The translations under genes were made by a program, and so were the position numbers. From Anaeromyxobacter dehalogenans 2CP-C (GTDB lineage: Bacteria; Myxococcota; Myxococcia; Myxococcales; Anaeromyxobacteraceae): a DNA stretch of 64,000 nt. Where the stretch lies: assembly GCF_000013385.1 (NCBI RefSeq), contig NC_007760.1, positions 2,295,001 through 2,359,000 on the forward strand. Direction: 5' to 3'. The notes under the pieces were generated by a model. It saw only the letters and a list, made by a program, of their open reading frames with translations, was not told where the DNA came from and did no database searches. Each line of letters opens with the position of its first letter. Positions within the stretch are counted from its first letter, which is position 1. Below are positions 5,608 to 59,499 of this stretch, in pieces.

Positions 5608-7563
5608 TCAGTCGGCCATGGTCGAGACGTCGCCGGGGTCCTGGCCCATCTCGACGGCCTTCAGGTAGCGCCGCATGATCTTGCCGGAGCGCGTCTTCGG
5701 CAGCGTGGCGCGGAGCTCGACGTCGGACGGGGTCGCGATGGGGCCGAGGTCCTGGCGGACGTGGTCCTTCAGCGAGCCGATGACGCCGGGGCCCTGGGGG
5801 ACGCCCTTGCGGAGCACCACGTACGCCTTGATCCGCTCGCCCTTCACCGGGTCGGGCAGGCCCACCACCGCGCTCTCGGCCACCGCCGGGTGGCGGAGCA
5901 GCGAACCCTCCACGTCGGCGGTGCCGATGCGGTGGCCGGCCACGTTCAGCACGTCGTCGGCGCGCCCGAGCACGGCGAAGTAGCCGTCGCGGTCCTTCAC
6001 CGCGATGTCACCCGCCGTGTAGACCCCGGGGATCTGCGTCCAGTACTTCTCGTAGCGGGCGTGGTCGTTCCACACCGTGCGCAGCATGTACGGGAGCGGC
6101 TTGCGGATCACGAGCAGCCCGCCCTGCCCCTCGGGCACCGGCTCCCCGCCCTGATCCAGGATGGCGACGTCGGCGCCGGGCATGGGCTTGCCCACCTTGC
6201 CCGGCCGCGCGTCGAACGTGGGCAGCGTCCCGAGCACCGGGGCGGCGATCTCGGTCTGCCACCAGTTGTCCACCACCATACCCTTCGACTGGCCCACCAG
6301 GTGCTGCTGCGCCCAGTGGTGCGCCTCCGGGTTGAGCGGCTCGCCGGCGCACGCGATGAGCCGCAGCTTGCGCAGGTCGTACTTGGCCGGCGCGTCGCCG
6401 CCGTGGCTCATCCACATGCGCACCGCGGTGGGCGCGGTGAACATGACGTCCACGCCGTAGCGCTCGCACAGCTCCCAGGTCACCTCGGGCGACGGGTAGT
6501 CCGGCACGCCCTCGCGCGTGAAGATGGTCGCGCCGACGGACAGCGGCCCGTACACGATGAACGAGTGGCCGACGATCCACCCGATGTCCGAGGTGGACCA
6601 GTAGATGTCCTTGTCGCCGATCTGGTAGTAGGCGCGCGCCAGGTACGTGGTGCCGACCAGGTAGCCGCCGGTGGTGTGGACCACGCCCTTCGGCTTCCCG
6701 GTGGTGCCGGACGTGTAGAGGATGAACAGCGGGTCCTCCGCGTCCATCGGCTCGGGCGGGCAGTGGATGGCCGCCGCGTCCTGCACGTCGTAGAAGTCGT
6801 GCTCGCGCTCCGACTCGAACGTGAACGGCGCGTCGCCGGGCCGCGAGCCGCGCCGGTGCACCACCACGTGCTCCACCGAGTACAGGTCGCGCACCGCCTC
6901 GTCCACGGTGGGCTTCAGCGGGATCTTCTTCCCGCGCCGCAGCGTGAAGTCCGAGCAGATGACGACCTTGGCGGCGGAGTCCTCGATGCGGCTGCGCAGC
7001 GCCTGCGTGCCCATGCCGGCGAACACCACCGAGTGGATGGCGCCGATGCGCGCGCACGCGAGCATCGAGATGATGCCCTCCGGCGTGAGCGGCATGTAGA
7101 TGATGACGCGGTCGCCCTTCTTCACGCCCAGCTTGCGGAGCGCGTTCCCGAAGCGGCCCACCTCGCGGTAGAGCCGGTTGTACGTGTACGTGTGCTCCTC
7201 GCCGTCCTCGCCGACCCAGATCAGCGCGGCCTTGAGGCGGCGATCGCCGAACACGTGGCGGTCGATGCAGTTGACGGAGGCGTTCAGCTTCCCGCCCACG
7301 AACCACTCGTGGCGCGGCGGGTCGAAGCGCATCACCTCCTCGAACGGCCGCATCCAGTCCACGAGCTTCGCCTTCTCGCGCCAGAACGCCTCTGGCTCCT
7401 CCTGCGCGAACGCGCGCTCGACGGCGTCGTTCGCGACGTGGGCCCGCTGCGCGAGCCACACCGGCGCCTTGATGGTGCGTTCGTCCGTGGACAGCGCCTC
7501 GATGGCGGCGCGCTGCGCCTCGGTGAGATCGGGGAACCTGGGATCAGCGGTCTCGGTAGCCAT
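5608..7563 (-). CDS. acs: Acetyl-CoA synthetase (AMP-forming)
   Basis: 651 residues, the normal length for Acs. It activates acetate with ATP and CoA to acetyl-CoA via acetyl-AMP. The adenylate-forming signature [10 protein letters not shown] is at residues 284-293. The acetate-pocket and adenylation motifs DNWWQTE and [10 protein letters not shown] are present. The C-terminal PKTRSGK motif places the catalytic lysine, the usual site of regulatory acetylation, at about residue 628. The ATG at 7563 is preceded by a purine-rich site (AGAGG) at normal spacing. Acetate is a standard electron donor and carbon source for bacteria of this type, so an assimilation or oxidation role fits. No acetyltransferase or deacetylase gene lies beside it. 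Confidence 0.97.
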
Positions 7564-53734: not shown

Positions 53735-55930
53735 TTACGCGCTGGCCTGCTCCGCCTTCGGCTCGTTCGCTGCCTCGGCGGGCTCCTCCTTGGGCAGCAC
53801 CGGCATGTGCCGGACCGCGAGCCCGAAGAGGAAGATGGTCGCCGCGATGAGGCCGAGCGAGACGCCCCACTCGACCGAGCTCGGGAGGTACGCCTGCGCC
53901 GAGTCCTGCGGCATGGCGCCCTTGAGGTTCATCGCGAACACCACCACGCTCATGCGGTTCAGCACGATGCCGCCGGTGGCGAGCGCCGACGCCACGCCCA
54001 GGATCGCCGGACGCTCACGGAGCTTCGCCGCGCCGAGGAGCACGAGCGGCAGGAGGCCGCCCAGCACCACCTCGGCCAGGAACAGGCCGGCCTTCGGGCC
54101 GGTGAGCGCGTGCCCGAGCTGGCCGCGGACGGCCAGGTCGCCGAGGCGGAACGCCTCGTACACCGCGAGGGCCCAGAACGCCACCTTGCCGAGCGCGGCG
54201 AGCTGCGCCACGCGGACCTGCCGCTTGAACGCCTTCGCGATCCACAGCTCCACCAGCACCATCAGGCCCAGGCCGGCCGCGATGGACGAGAGGAAGAAGT
54301 AGACCGGCATCACCGGCGACCACCAGGCGTGGTCGAGCTTGTCGGGCATGAGCAGGAACAGCGAGCCCAGCGAGCTCTGGTGCATGGTGGACAGCGTCAC
54401 CGCCGCGATGGCGAGCAGGATGGGCACCGGCTTCTCGCCCGGGCGCGTGCGGAACGCGTACGCCAGGACCGAGAACACCGCCGCCGCCGCCGCCGCGATC
54501 ACGACGTTGCGGGACATCAGGTAGACGAACAGCGTCACCGCGCCCACCACGTACCAGGGCGACCAGCGCTTCCAGGCCTCCATCGCCTTCTTCATGCCCC
54601 AGCGCTCGAACGGCACCGGCATGAACTCGAACGCGAGGACCGTCACGTACAGGCCGACGCACCAGGAGACCTCGAACATGGCCGAGTGGTGCGGGGCCTC
54701 GGTGCCGAGACGCCAGAAGTGCCACGGCAGGCCGAGGTCGGCGAGCAGCGTCACCGTGACGAACGAGTAGGACAGGAGGCCCATCAGCACGGCGGACCGT
54801 CCGATGGAGTACAGGTCCTTGCGCTGGAGCACGTAGATGAGGCCCGCCGTGGCGAACGCGCCGGCCGCGACCGCGATCCAGACCAGGTCGAAGACGATCC
54901 AGAGGCCCCAGGCGTAGGTGTCGCTGAGGTTGGTGGAGCCGCCCAGGCCGAGGGCGAACCGGGCCACGAAGGAGATCGCGCCCCAGGCCATCACCGCCGC
55001 GAGCAGCTTGTTCGCGGTGGTCCAGAACGGCTGCTTCACCGGGGCGAACTCGGGGTGGTGCTCGTGCGCCTTCCTCTCCTTCGCCTTCACCTCCTGCCTG
55101 CGCTTCGACAGCGCGTACACGCCGCCGAGCGCCGCGCCCACCCCGATGACCGCGGGCGGGACCGCGCCGAGCGCCACCGCGCTGCGGCGCGGGAGCGGAT
55201 CGGTGCCGAGGTCCGTCGGGAAGCCGAGCTTCTCGAACGGGACCGGCGACAGGTACAGCATGTTCGTCCCGCCCACCTCGTGCTCGCCGTAGACGTGGTC
55301 CACGTACTTGGCCGGGCTGGCCGCGATGCGCGCGTGCGCCTCCTTCAGCAGCTCGTCCCGGTCGCCGTACTTCAGCGCGCCGGCCGGGCACTGCTTGACG
55401 CACGCCGGGATGGCGTACGCCGCGGCGAGGTGGGCGCGCTCCTCCGCGGTGAGCGCGACGCCGTTGCGCTCGTCGGGCACGGCCGCCGTCTGGCGGCCCA
55501 CGCACATGTCGCACTTCTGGATCTTCGGCGCGAGCGAGTCCCACTCCGCGGTGGGCACGCCGAACGGGCAGGCCCACATGCAGTAGCGGCAGCCGATGCA
55601 CTTCGAGGCGTCGTAGGCGACGGCGCCCGACTCGGTCTTGTGCAGCGCCGTCACCGGGCAGGCCGCCGCGCAGGCCGGCTCCTCGCAGTGCATGCACTGG
55701 CGCTTGGTGGACACGTACCGGAGCCCGCCCGGCGCGTTCGCGTCCTCCACCTCGTCGAAGGTGACCACCGCGAACGTGCTGGAGGTCAGCGTGTTGGGGT
55801 TCTGGAGCCCCTTGTCACCGCCGAGCAGCACCGTCTGCTCGGCGGGGAGGTCGTTCCACTGCTTGCAGGTGCTCTGGCACGAGCGGCAACCGATGCAGTA
55901 CGTCGTGTCGATCAACGTGGCCTTGCTCAT
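53735..55930 (-). CDS. Fused FDH iron-sulfur (FdnH-like) and HybB/NrfD-type membrane subunit
   Basis: 731 residues. The N-terminal 235 are an FdnH-like ferredoxin subunit with four 4Fe-4S cluster motifs: CIGCRSCQSTC from residue 12, CMHCEEPACAAACP, CIGCRYCMWACP, and CDMC with CVKQCP. A membrane helix follows (PPAVIGVGAALGGVYAL, about 252-268), as in the C-terminus of FdnH, then a basic linker. The rest is a polysulfide-reductase/HybB-like integral membrane domain with about nine helices (for example YAWGLWIVFDLVWIAVAAG and HFWRLGTEAP). It would carry electrons from FdnG to a quinone site. The usual heme b subunit FdnI is absent. AAAGGAGA precedes the ATG; the gap to fdnG is 27 nt. Confidence 0.92.
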   Translation of the reverse strand: MSKATLIDTTYCIGCRSCQSTCKQWNDLPAEQTVLLGGDKGLQNPNTLTSSTFAVVTFDEVEDANAPGGLRYVSTKRQCMHCEEPACAAACPVTALHKTESGAVAYDASKCIGCRYCMWACPFGVPTAEWDSLAPKIQKCDMCVGRQTAAVPDERNGVALTAEERAHLAAAYAIPACVKQCPAGALKYGDRDELLKEAHARIAASPAKYVDHVYGEHEVGGTNMLYLSPVPFEKLGFPTDLGTDPLPRRSAVALGAVPPAVIGVGAALGGVYALSKRRQEVKAKERKAHEHHPEFAPVKQPFWTTANKLLAAVMAWGAISFVARFALGLGGSTNLSDTYAWGLWIVFDLVWIAVAAGAFATAGLIYVLQRKDLYSIGRSAVLMGLLSYSFVTVTLLADLGLPWHFWRLGTEAPHHSAMFEVSWCVGLYVTVLAFEFMPVPFERWGMKKAMEAWKRWSPWYVVGAVTLFVYLMSRNVVIAAAAAAVFSVLAYAFRTRPGEKPVPILLAIAAVTLSTMHQSSLGSLFLLMPDKLDHAWWSPVMPVYFFLSSIAAGLGLMVLVELWIAKAFKRQVRVAQLAALGKVAFWALAVYEAFRLGDLAVRGQLGHALTGPKAGLFLAEVVLGGLLPLVLLGAAKLRERPAILGVASALATGGIVLNRMSVVVFAMNLKGAMPQDSAQAYLPSSVEWGVSLGLIAATIFLFGLAVRHMPVLPKEEPAEAANEPKAEQASA

Positions 55931-55957: not shown

Positions 55958-58900
55958 CTACCGCGAGGCGACGGCCTCCTCCACGCGAGCGACGTCGACG
56001 AGGCACGCCTTGGTCTCCTGGGTGCCGGCTCCCGGGTCCACCGCGTCGATGGTCAGGTAGTTGGTGCTCGGACCGGTGCTGAGGCCCTTGAACCCCCAGT
56101 TGTACGGCATCCACACCACCGGCACCTCCTGGCCGGCGATCTTCATGACCTGCATGCGCTTGGTGACGACGGCCTTCACCGTCACGTCGCCGCGCGCCGA
56201 GGTCACCTTCACCTTGTCGCCCGACCGGATCGTGAGCTTCGCGGCGAGCTTCTCCGGCAGCTCGATCACCGGCTCCGGGAACAGCTCGTTCAGCCACGGC
56301 ACGTTGCGGGTGGTGGACCCGGCGCACCAGTGCTCCGCGATGGACGAGGTCATGAGCACGTAGGGGAAGTCCTTCGACGTGCCGATGGGCTGCTTGGCCT
56401 TGACCCGCGGGTACTTGAGGCACGGGTTCGTCTGCACCTTCGGGTGCATGACGTTCGCGACGGGGCTCTCGACCGGCTCGTAGTGCTCGGGGAACGGACC
56501 GTCCTTCGGCACGTAGGAGCTGTCGATCGGCAGCTCGTCCTTCGCCTCCTTGAAGGACTTGTACGGCGCAGCCATGAGCCGCCCCAGCCCCTCGGCGTTC
56601 ATGCGGAACGCGCGCTGGCCCTCCGGCGTGTCCGGGCCCTTGGTGGCGTCCGGCACGTCCGGCGTGTCCTTGCCCTTCCACTTCTTCTCGGTCTCGTCCC
56701 AGGCGATGATCGGGATGGTCCCGGGCCAGGGCTTGCCGTTCGCGTCGCAGGAGGCGCGGTTGTAGAGGATCTTCATGTTGCCCGGCCAGGACCAGGCGAA
56801 GTCCTTGTAGAAGCCGATGCCGGACTTGTCCGAGCTGTCGCGGCGCTTCGACAGGTTCTTGCCGCCGGCGAACACGCCCGCGTACAGCCAGACGCCGGAC
56901 GAGGTCGAGCCGTCGGCCTGCAGCTGGCCGATGCCGCCCACCATGTCACCCGCCTTCAGCACCTTGCCGTCGGGGAGCGTCACGTCGCGGTGCACGCGGC
57001 CGTTGATCTCCTTCAGGACGTCCTCGGCGAGGCTCTCCGCGCGGTAGTCCCAGGCGGCCTTGGCGAGCGGCGCGTCCTTGGGATCCGCCGAGCCGGCGTA
57101 CAGGCCGCGGACCTTGCGGTAGACCGCGTCGATGATCTCGATGTCGGTCTTGGCCTGCCCGGGCGGCTTCACCGCCGCGTGGCGCCACTGCACCATGCGG
57201 CCCGAGCCGGTGATGGTGCCCTCCTTCTCCATGAAGTAGGCGGCCGGGAGCAGCAGCACCTCGGTCTGGATCGCCTTCGGGTCGGTGCCCGGGCGCTGCC
57301 AGAACGCGGCGGTCTCGGTCTCCCACAGCTCCTGCACCACCAGCATGTCGAGCTTCGACAGCGCGTCGTGCACGTAGGAGAGGTTCGGGTTCGTGACCAT
57401 CGGGTTCTGGCCGAGGGCCCACAGCACCTTCATCTGCCCGGCGTAGGCGGCGTCGAGGATGCCGTAGATCGAGTAGTCCTTCTTTGCGCTCTTCTTCGGC
57501 AGCCAGGCCCAGCCGAACTCGTTCTCGGGGGTGGCGTTCTCGCCGAACCACGCCTTCAGGCCGTTCGCGGTCATCTTCGCGCGGAAGCTGCCGTTGGCCT
57601 TCGTCCAGTCCTTGAACGTCGTGTGGGCGTGCTCGGGGTAGTTCAGGTAGCCGAACATGTAGCCGTGCAGCACGGACATGTCGCAGGCGCCCTGCACGTT
57701 CGGCTCGCCGCGCAGCGCGTTGACGCCGCCGCCGGCCACGCCGATGTTGCCGAGCAGCATCTGCAGGATGCCGTAGCAGCGGATGTTCTGGATGCCGACC
57801 GTGTGCTGGGTCATCCCGAGCGCGTACAGGATCGTGCCGGGCCGGTTGTTCGCGTACAGCTCCGCGATCTCGACCACCTGCTTCGCCGGCACGCCCGAGA
57901 TCTGCTCCGCCACCTCCGGCGTGTAGCGCGCGAAGTGCTGCTTCAGCTTCGAGAACACGCAGCGCGGGTCGTCGAGGTCCTTCGCCTTGACCGGCTTGCG
58001 CGCGGCGTCGAGCTCGTAGCCCCACGAGGCGTTGTCGTACTTGTGCTTCTCGTGGTCGTACCCGGAGAACACGCCCTCGTCGAAGCCGAACTCGTCCTTC
58101 GACACGAGGAGCGCGTTCGTGTGCAGCTTCACGTACGCCTCGTCGTAGAGGCGCTTCTGCAGCACGTGGTTGATGACCGCCGAGAGGAACGCGATGTCCG
58201 AGCCCGGGCGGATGCGCGCGAACACGTCGGCGATCGAGGAGGTGCGGTTGAAGCGCGGATCGACGTGGATGACCTTGGCGCCCTTCTCCTGCGCCTTGCG
58301 GATCCACTTCATCGCCATCACGTGGTTCTCGGCGGCGTTGGACCCCTCGATCAGGAAGACCTTGGCGTTCTGCAGGTCAGCCCAACCATTCGTCATCGCG
58401 CCACGGCCGAACGATGCCCCCAGACTGGGGACGGTGGGGCTGTGTCAAAGCCGTGCCTGGTGCTCGACGTAGCTCGTCCCGAGCAGCCGGCCCATCTTGT
58501 TGAAGAGGTAGCACTCCTCGTTCGTGTTCTGGGCGCCGCCCATGAGCGCGATCGCGTCGGTGCGGTTCACCGGGTACTCGGCGTCGCCGTCCTTCTCGGT
58601 GACGGTCCAGCTCGCGTCGCGGACCTCCTTGAGCTTCCGGGCGAGCTTCTCGTACGCCTGGTCCCAGGAGATCTCCTCCCAGCGATCGGAGCCCGGCGCG
58701 CGGTACATCGGCGCCTTCACCCGCCGCGGGGAGTCGTGGGTGGCCTTCATGGCCGCGCCCTTGGTGCAGAGCGCGCCGAAGTTGATGGCGTGGTCCGGAT
58801 CGCCCTCGAGGTTGACGAGCTGCCCGTCCCTGACGTGGGCGACCATGCCGCAGCCGCACGAGCAGAAGTTGCAGGCGGTGGTGAACTCCTTGGTGCCCTT

Positions 58901-59020
58901 CAGCTTCAGGGCGCCGGTGGCGGCCCGCGCCTCGCCCGGGCCGAAGCCCAGGTCGGCGAGCGCCAGCCCGGCCGTGCCCCCGGCTGCAATCTTCAACCAA
59001 TTTCTTCTGCTCAGGGTCAT
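55958..59020 (-). CDS. fdnG: Formate dehydrogenase catalytic subunit, selenocysteine enzyme with Tat signal
   Basis: 1020 residues when the in-frame UGA at 58447-58445 is read as selenocysteine 192; E. coli FdnG is 1015 with Sec196. The frame before UGA ends VEHQARL and continues after it as HSPTVPSLG...GRGAMTNGW, matching the E. coli sequence around its Sec. SRRNWLK near the start is a twin-arginine signal. The 4Fe-4S cluster cysteines are 50, 53, 57 and 85 (CNFCSCGC, then LCTKG). The C-terminal molybdopterin domain carries the Tat-exported enzyme body ending VARVEEAVASR. It oxidises formate to CO2 outside the inner membrane. AAAGGGAAG precedes the ATG at 59020. Reading the UGA as stop gives two apparent genes; they are one. 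Confidence 0.95.
58418..58447 (-). promoter_or_regulatory. Selenocysteine UGA and bacterial SECIS stem-loop in fdnG
   Basis: The UGA occupies 58447-58445. Fourteen nucleotides later CCCC (58430-58427) and GGGG (58421-58418) form a stem around the loop AGUCU. The GUCU of the loop starts 20 nt after UGA, the same register as the GUCU in the E. coli fdhF SECIS. SelB binds this kind of loop and bulge to deliver Sec-tRNA. A perfect GC stem and matching distance make this convincing without a folding run. Confidence 0.9.
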
Positions 59021-59499
59021 TGTGGTGCTTCCCTTTCGTTGCCAATCCGGATGGCGGCTGCTCCCGCGGGTCGCGGCGTGTGCACCGCCCGGGCCACCCG
59101 AAGGATTGCCTCCTCGGGCGTACGCCGGGCGACGACGCGGGCGCACTGTACCGATCGGTCCACATTGATGCAAGTGCCCGTCACACCGAGCGAATTCTGG
59201 CTCAAGTCGAGTTCAAAGGTCCATGAAGTTCGGAATACCTGTTCCGGGGGAGCGGGGAAGCCCCTGGACTTCCGGGGTCCGGTACCGGCTTGACCCGGAT
59301 CAATTGACCACGCGCATTTGGGCGCCGGCGCGGGAGGGGGACGAAAATTACGCGCCGGGAATCCCCTGCGGCGCACCCGGCGCAATCGCTGCGCGGCGGG
59401 CGGCCGCGCGCCGGGGCGCCCGCGCGATGCCTCCCCTGCCCGGCCCGCACAACGGGCATACTTTGACGAGGCGGGGCCGCGGGCCCGGCCCACAGGCCC
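59021..59499. promoter_or_regulatory. Divergent, relatively AT-rich control region between fdnG and the histidine kinase
   Basis: 479 bp without a gene, holding the least GC-rich stretch of the window (about 59160-59360). Within it are a perfect palindrome ACCGATCGGT (59150-59159) and a dyad CGGAA-N6-TTCCG (59231-59246). I find no convincing sigma-54 (TGGCAC-N5-TTGC) or sigma-70 pair. It must contain the fdn promoter and probably that of the kinase; the palindromes are candidate operators only. Confidence 0.5.

Follow-up and report, generated by a model that had tools for sequence, protein, structure and literature searches.

The window analysed here is a stretch of 64,000 nucleotides from the genome of Anaeromyxobacter dehalogenans 2CP-C. 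It contains, on the minus strand, the gene of a formate dehydrogenase alpha subunit with an in-frame TGA, followed by the gene of a fusion protein, then by an fdhE-like gene and finally by a convergent phosphofructokinase gene. The features of this locus are collected in Table 1.

Table 1. Features of the formate dehydrogenase locus (positions within the window; U of the UGA is nt 1 of the hairpin numbering).
Feature	Position	Strand	Evidence
FdhA/fdnG-type formate dehydrogenase alpha subunit, 1,020 aa, Sec192	55958..59020	minus	translation with TGA = U, TIGR01553, Pfam, PDB matches
In-frame TGA, codon 192, Sec codon (predicted)	58445..58447	minus	translation; UGA or Cys at the aligned codon of relatives
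SECIS apical hairpin CCCC-AGUCU-GGGG, nt 18-30, with U17, G23, U24	58418..58430	minus	pair counts in Sec versus Cys relatives
Rfam SECIS_3 (RF01989) match, full model length	58392..58450	minus	55.5 bits, E 1.6e-12, gathering score 63
731-aa fusion of a HybA/HmcB-like 4Fe-4S electron-transfer domain and a HybB/NrfD-like integral membrane domain	53735..55930	minus	NF045715, NF008133, Pfam
FdhE-like formate dehydrogenase accessory protein, 276 aa	52819..53649	minus	PF24859, PF24860, TIGR01562

If the TGA is translated as selenocysteine, it is the sole stop within the frame of the alpha subunit, while the standard code splits the gene into two ORFs (59173..58445 and 58396..55958). The sequence-only reading of this DNA had described this split, with correct coordinates for the gene but no mention of its minus strand. 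The alpha subunit matches TIGR01553 (formate dehydrogenase-N alpha) over its full length, residues 3-1011, with 1052.2 bits against a curated cut-off of 814.2, and it carries the Pfam domains Molybdopterin, Molydop_binding and Molybdop_Fe4S4. Among the solved structures we find the homologues 1h0h, 1kqf and 6sdv, the best match being 1h0h (771 bits). The 1h0h alignment runs through the site, and the residue aligned with codon 192 is a non-standard one, given as X in 'EHQARIXHSATV'; the corresponding context in Anaeromyxobacter is HQAR-L-U-HSPTVPSLGASFGR. The homology is thus unbroken across the TGA, which lies in the column of the catalytic Sec, a position where other homologues have Cys; on both points the earlier reading was right. 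The N-terminus contains a twin-arginine-like signal, SRRNWLK, as read by eye. The nearest relatives reach 97% protein identity (Anaeromyxobacter sp. PSR-1).

Directly after the UGA follows a hairpin with the layout U17, C18-C21, a loop of A22-G23-U24-C25-U26, and G27-G30. GUCU begins 20 nt after the UGA, that is, at nt 23 when the U of the UGA is counted as 1, and the hairpin claimed for this place is therefore present in the canonical bacterial SECIS register. A loop GU at nt 23-24, a U at nt 17 and an apical stem of 4 bp are also features of the SECIS of the E. coli fdhF type. In the whole window, a GU at 23-24 together with a 4-bp stem was found at only 3 of 748 TGA triplets, and among these three only the TGA of codon 192 is flanked by long open frames, of 255 and 828 codons.

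The hairpin had been called a well-matched SECIS. It resembles Rfam SECIS_3 in that the match covers the full length of the model, and differs in that the score stays under the gathering score. Folding of the sequence after the UGA, which had been proposed as a check, gave -15.5 kcal/mol (z = -0.81), no better than shuffled sequences; an unremarkable energy is expected, because the DNA is GC-rich. Since single-sequence folding does not separate the hairpin from the shuffles, we left it out as evidence, and the case for the hairpin is carried by the comparison with relatives. The same numbers could be turned into an argument for another explanation, namely near-cognate suppression of the UGA (as Trp or Cys, for instance) beside an incidental hairpin, as a CCCC/GGGG stem arises easily by chance in GC-rich DNA.

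For the comparison we used 37 distinct sequences with UGA at the aligned codon, consisting of the window gene, its two paralogues in A. dehalogenans and sequences of relatives among other Myxococcota, Acidobacteria, Bacillota, spirochaetes and further groups; 19 other relatives have a Cys codon there. In the UGA sequences 98.6% of the stem cells are paired, compared with 38.2% in the Cys relatives. Three of the four stem pairs show changes on both sides among the 37 sequences, although the covariation counts are inflated by the kinship among them. The two outer pairs alternate between C-G and G-C, and the outermost one occurs also as A-U, U-A, G-U and U-G, while G16, U17, G23, U24 and U26 are invariant. 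None of the slid control stems comes near the pairing of the real stem. The compensatory changes therefore preserve the real stem and not its slid alternatives, and the stem is lost in the Cys homologues; together with the dedicated Sec machinery of the genome (see below) this leaves near-cognate suppression with a negligible probability.

The conservation of the codon bears on a second alternative, according to which the gene is a pseudogene whose TGA arose by nonsense mutation or sequencing error. The two ORFs obtained under standard translation would fit such a view. On the other hand, the identical TGA is found in full-length close relatives from the genus and the family, and also in acidobacterial MAGs; the frame has no other stop, this one falls exactly on the catalytic residue, and the hairpin behind it covaries. 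We consider a pseudogene exceedingly improbable, and on the grounds of conservation and covariation we rejected both this explanation and near-cognate readthrough.

Two acidobacterial relatives, with 63-65% identity, carry Cys at the site, and their hairpin is decayed but retains SECIS remnants (L092:1720-1763, CCCAGUCU-UACC; L095:4569-4612, CCCAGUUU-GACG). These two are likely to be recent changes from Sec to Cys. In addition, two formate dehydrogenase alpha genes, one with Cys (at 2898) and one with Sec (at 7372), lie within 5 kb of one another on a spirochaete contig (L096).

The sequence-only reading had stated that the organism must also encode SelA, SelB, SelC and SelD, and it had named beforehand the absence of selB or selC as the observation that would speak against it. 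All four genes are present in the genome: selA (482171-483586, 515 bits), selB (495652-497577, 315 bits with neighbours in the frame) and selD (3870998-3871924, 380 bits), each over its curated cut-off, and the tRNA-Sec gene selC with the anticodon TCA (2130853-2130947). A second over-threshold tRNA-Sec match (4428761) and the next one (4166908) are ordinary tRNA-Ser according to ARAGORN. The selD gene, on the minus strand within 3870700-3872300, has itself an internal in-frame TGA at the Sec/Cys site, in the context SHGAG-U-ACKI, and therefore the selenophosphate synthetase of A. dehalogenans is a predicted selenoprotein as well. A search of the genome with the window protein returned three FdhA genes, and no more, that have a TGA at the aligned place: the window gene, 4300575-4303643 and 956791-959793.

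In summary, the predicted decoding of codon 192 as Sec has the support of the UGA position, the covarying hairpin, the loss of this hairpin in Cys homologues and the complete set of selA, selB, selC and selD.

Next to the catalytic subunit, the operon differs from what the name fdnG suggests. In the fusion protein the HybA/HmcB-like domain is N-terminal and the HybB/NrfD-like domain C-terminal; NF045715 matches residues 2-288 and NF008133 residues 297-714, both under their equivalog cut-offs, and the Pfam domains are Fer4_11 and NrfD. TIGR01582 (FDH-beta) reached only 138, compared with a cut-off of 335. The FdhE-like protein has PF24859 and PF24860 above their gathering scores, and a TIGR01562 match of 58.9 bits, which is under its cut-off. 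We were not able to find an FdnI cytochrome b after the alpha subunit in the operon, where the fusion and fdhE genes stand instead before the convergent phosphofructokinase gene, and the combination of FdnH and FdnI that would mark an Fdn/Fdo complex (FdnGHI) is likewise not seen there. Hence the name fdnG, as it was given before, is appropriate for the catalytic subunit (TIGR01553) and not for the operon, which has a HybA/HybB-like fusion and no fdnI.

The fusion state of the partner varies among the relatives. Where the flanking DNA is long enough, most of the closest relatives have the fusion in one frame beside the alpha gene; among them are Anaeromyxobacter species, several acidobacterial and myxococcal MAGs and a deltaproteobacterial MAG. 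In two relatives (L066 and L101) the Fe-S half and the membrane half share a frame but are separated by a single stop, and in another (L065) the two halves are in different frames. No match to the membrane half was found nearby in the relatives from Bacillota, Mucispirillum and Selenomonas.

Of the known systems, E. coli FdnG is similar over nearly its whole length (residues 1-1011 align with 1-1013 of 1kqf), belongs to the same TIGR01553 equivalog and shares the active-site Sec with a SECIS directly downstream; the enterobacterial fdnG copies are about 40% identical to the Anaeromyxobacter alpha subunit. However, E. coli Fdn has separate FdnH and FdnI subunits in place of the HybA/HybB-like fusion. 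The Sec formate dehydrogenases of Desulfovibrio (1h0h, 6sdv) are similar in the non-standard residue that 1h0h has in the aligned column. These are soluble enzymes of the periplasm, built as dimers or trimers, whereas in Anaeromyxobacter the alpha gene is followed by that of a membrane-bound fused partner.

We are very nearly certain that the locus encodes the catalytic subunit of a respiratory-type Sec formate dehydrogenase, predicted to be periplasmic, with UGA192 decoded via SelB and the SECIS and with electrons probably passing to the fused partner and quinone. In such a mechanism SelB carrying Sec-tRNA-Sec would bind the hairpin immediately downstream of the UGA, so that Sec would be incorporated at codon 192. 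Sec192 would ligate Mo or W and take part in the oxidation of formate by an alpha subunit that is presumably located in the periplasm. From there, electrons may flow by way of the 4Fe-4S cluster within the alpha subunit to the HybA-like Fe-S domain of the fusion, and further through the HybB/NrfD-like membrane domain to the quinone pool as the probable acceptor. It is conceivable, but on the whole rather improbable, that the Sec formate dehydrogenases of Anaeromyxobacter and some Acidobacteria use a single fused HybA-HybB-type quinone-reducing subunit and not FdnH/FdnI. If this were true, such an arrangement would represent a modular type of its own among the membrane formate dehydrogenases.

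The finding of a Sec FdhA is correct and already known, and the gene belongs to the best known of the bacterial selenoprotein families. The formate dehydrogenase alpha subunit is the commonest such family with 103 members (PMC1794560, Table 1), and 11 selenoproteins of A. dehalogenans were catalogued in 2006 (PMC1794560): FdhA (3), SelD, peroxiredoxin (3), proline reductase, thioredoxin (2) and DsbA-like (PMC1794560, Table 3). The three UGA-containing FdhA genes and the UGA-containing selD reported here agree with this list. The window gene almost certainly belongs to the three published FdhA, an assignment that we infer, since loci are not listed in the table. Selenium is not mentioned in the 2CP-C genome paper, where 'formate' appears in the reference list alone (PMC2330069). 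It had also been expected that automated gene calling would report two genes or a pseudogene; two ORFs do result without recoding, but callers that know TIGR01553 and Sec probably handle FdhA, and the Sec FdhA was not overlooked, since the three were published in 2006 (PMC1794560).

The case is a clean check that a genuine Sec codon and its SECIS can be recognised in GC-rich DNA by a reading of the raw sequence; as far as the genetic code is concerned, the UGA of FdhA raises nothing new. For the organism, it confirms a known trait, namely that this facultatively anaerobic myxobacterium oxidises formate with a Sec enzyme.
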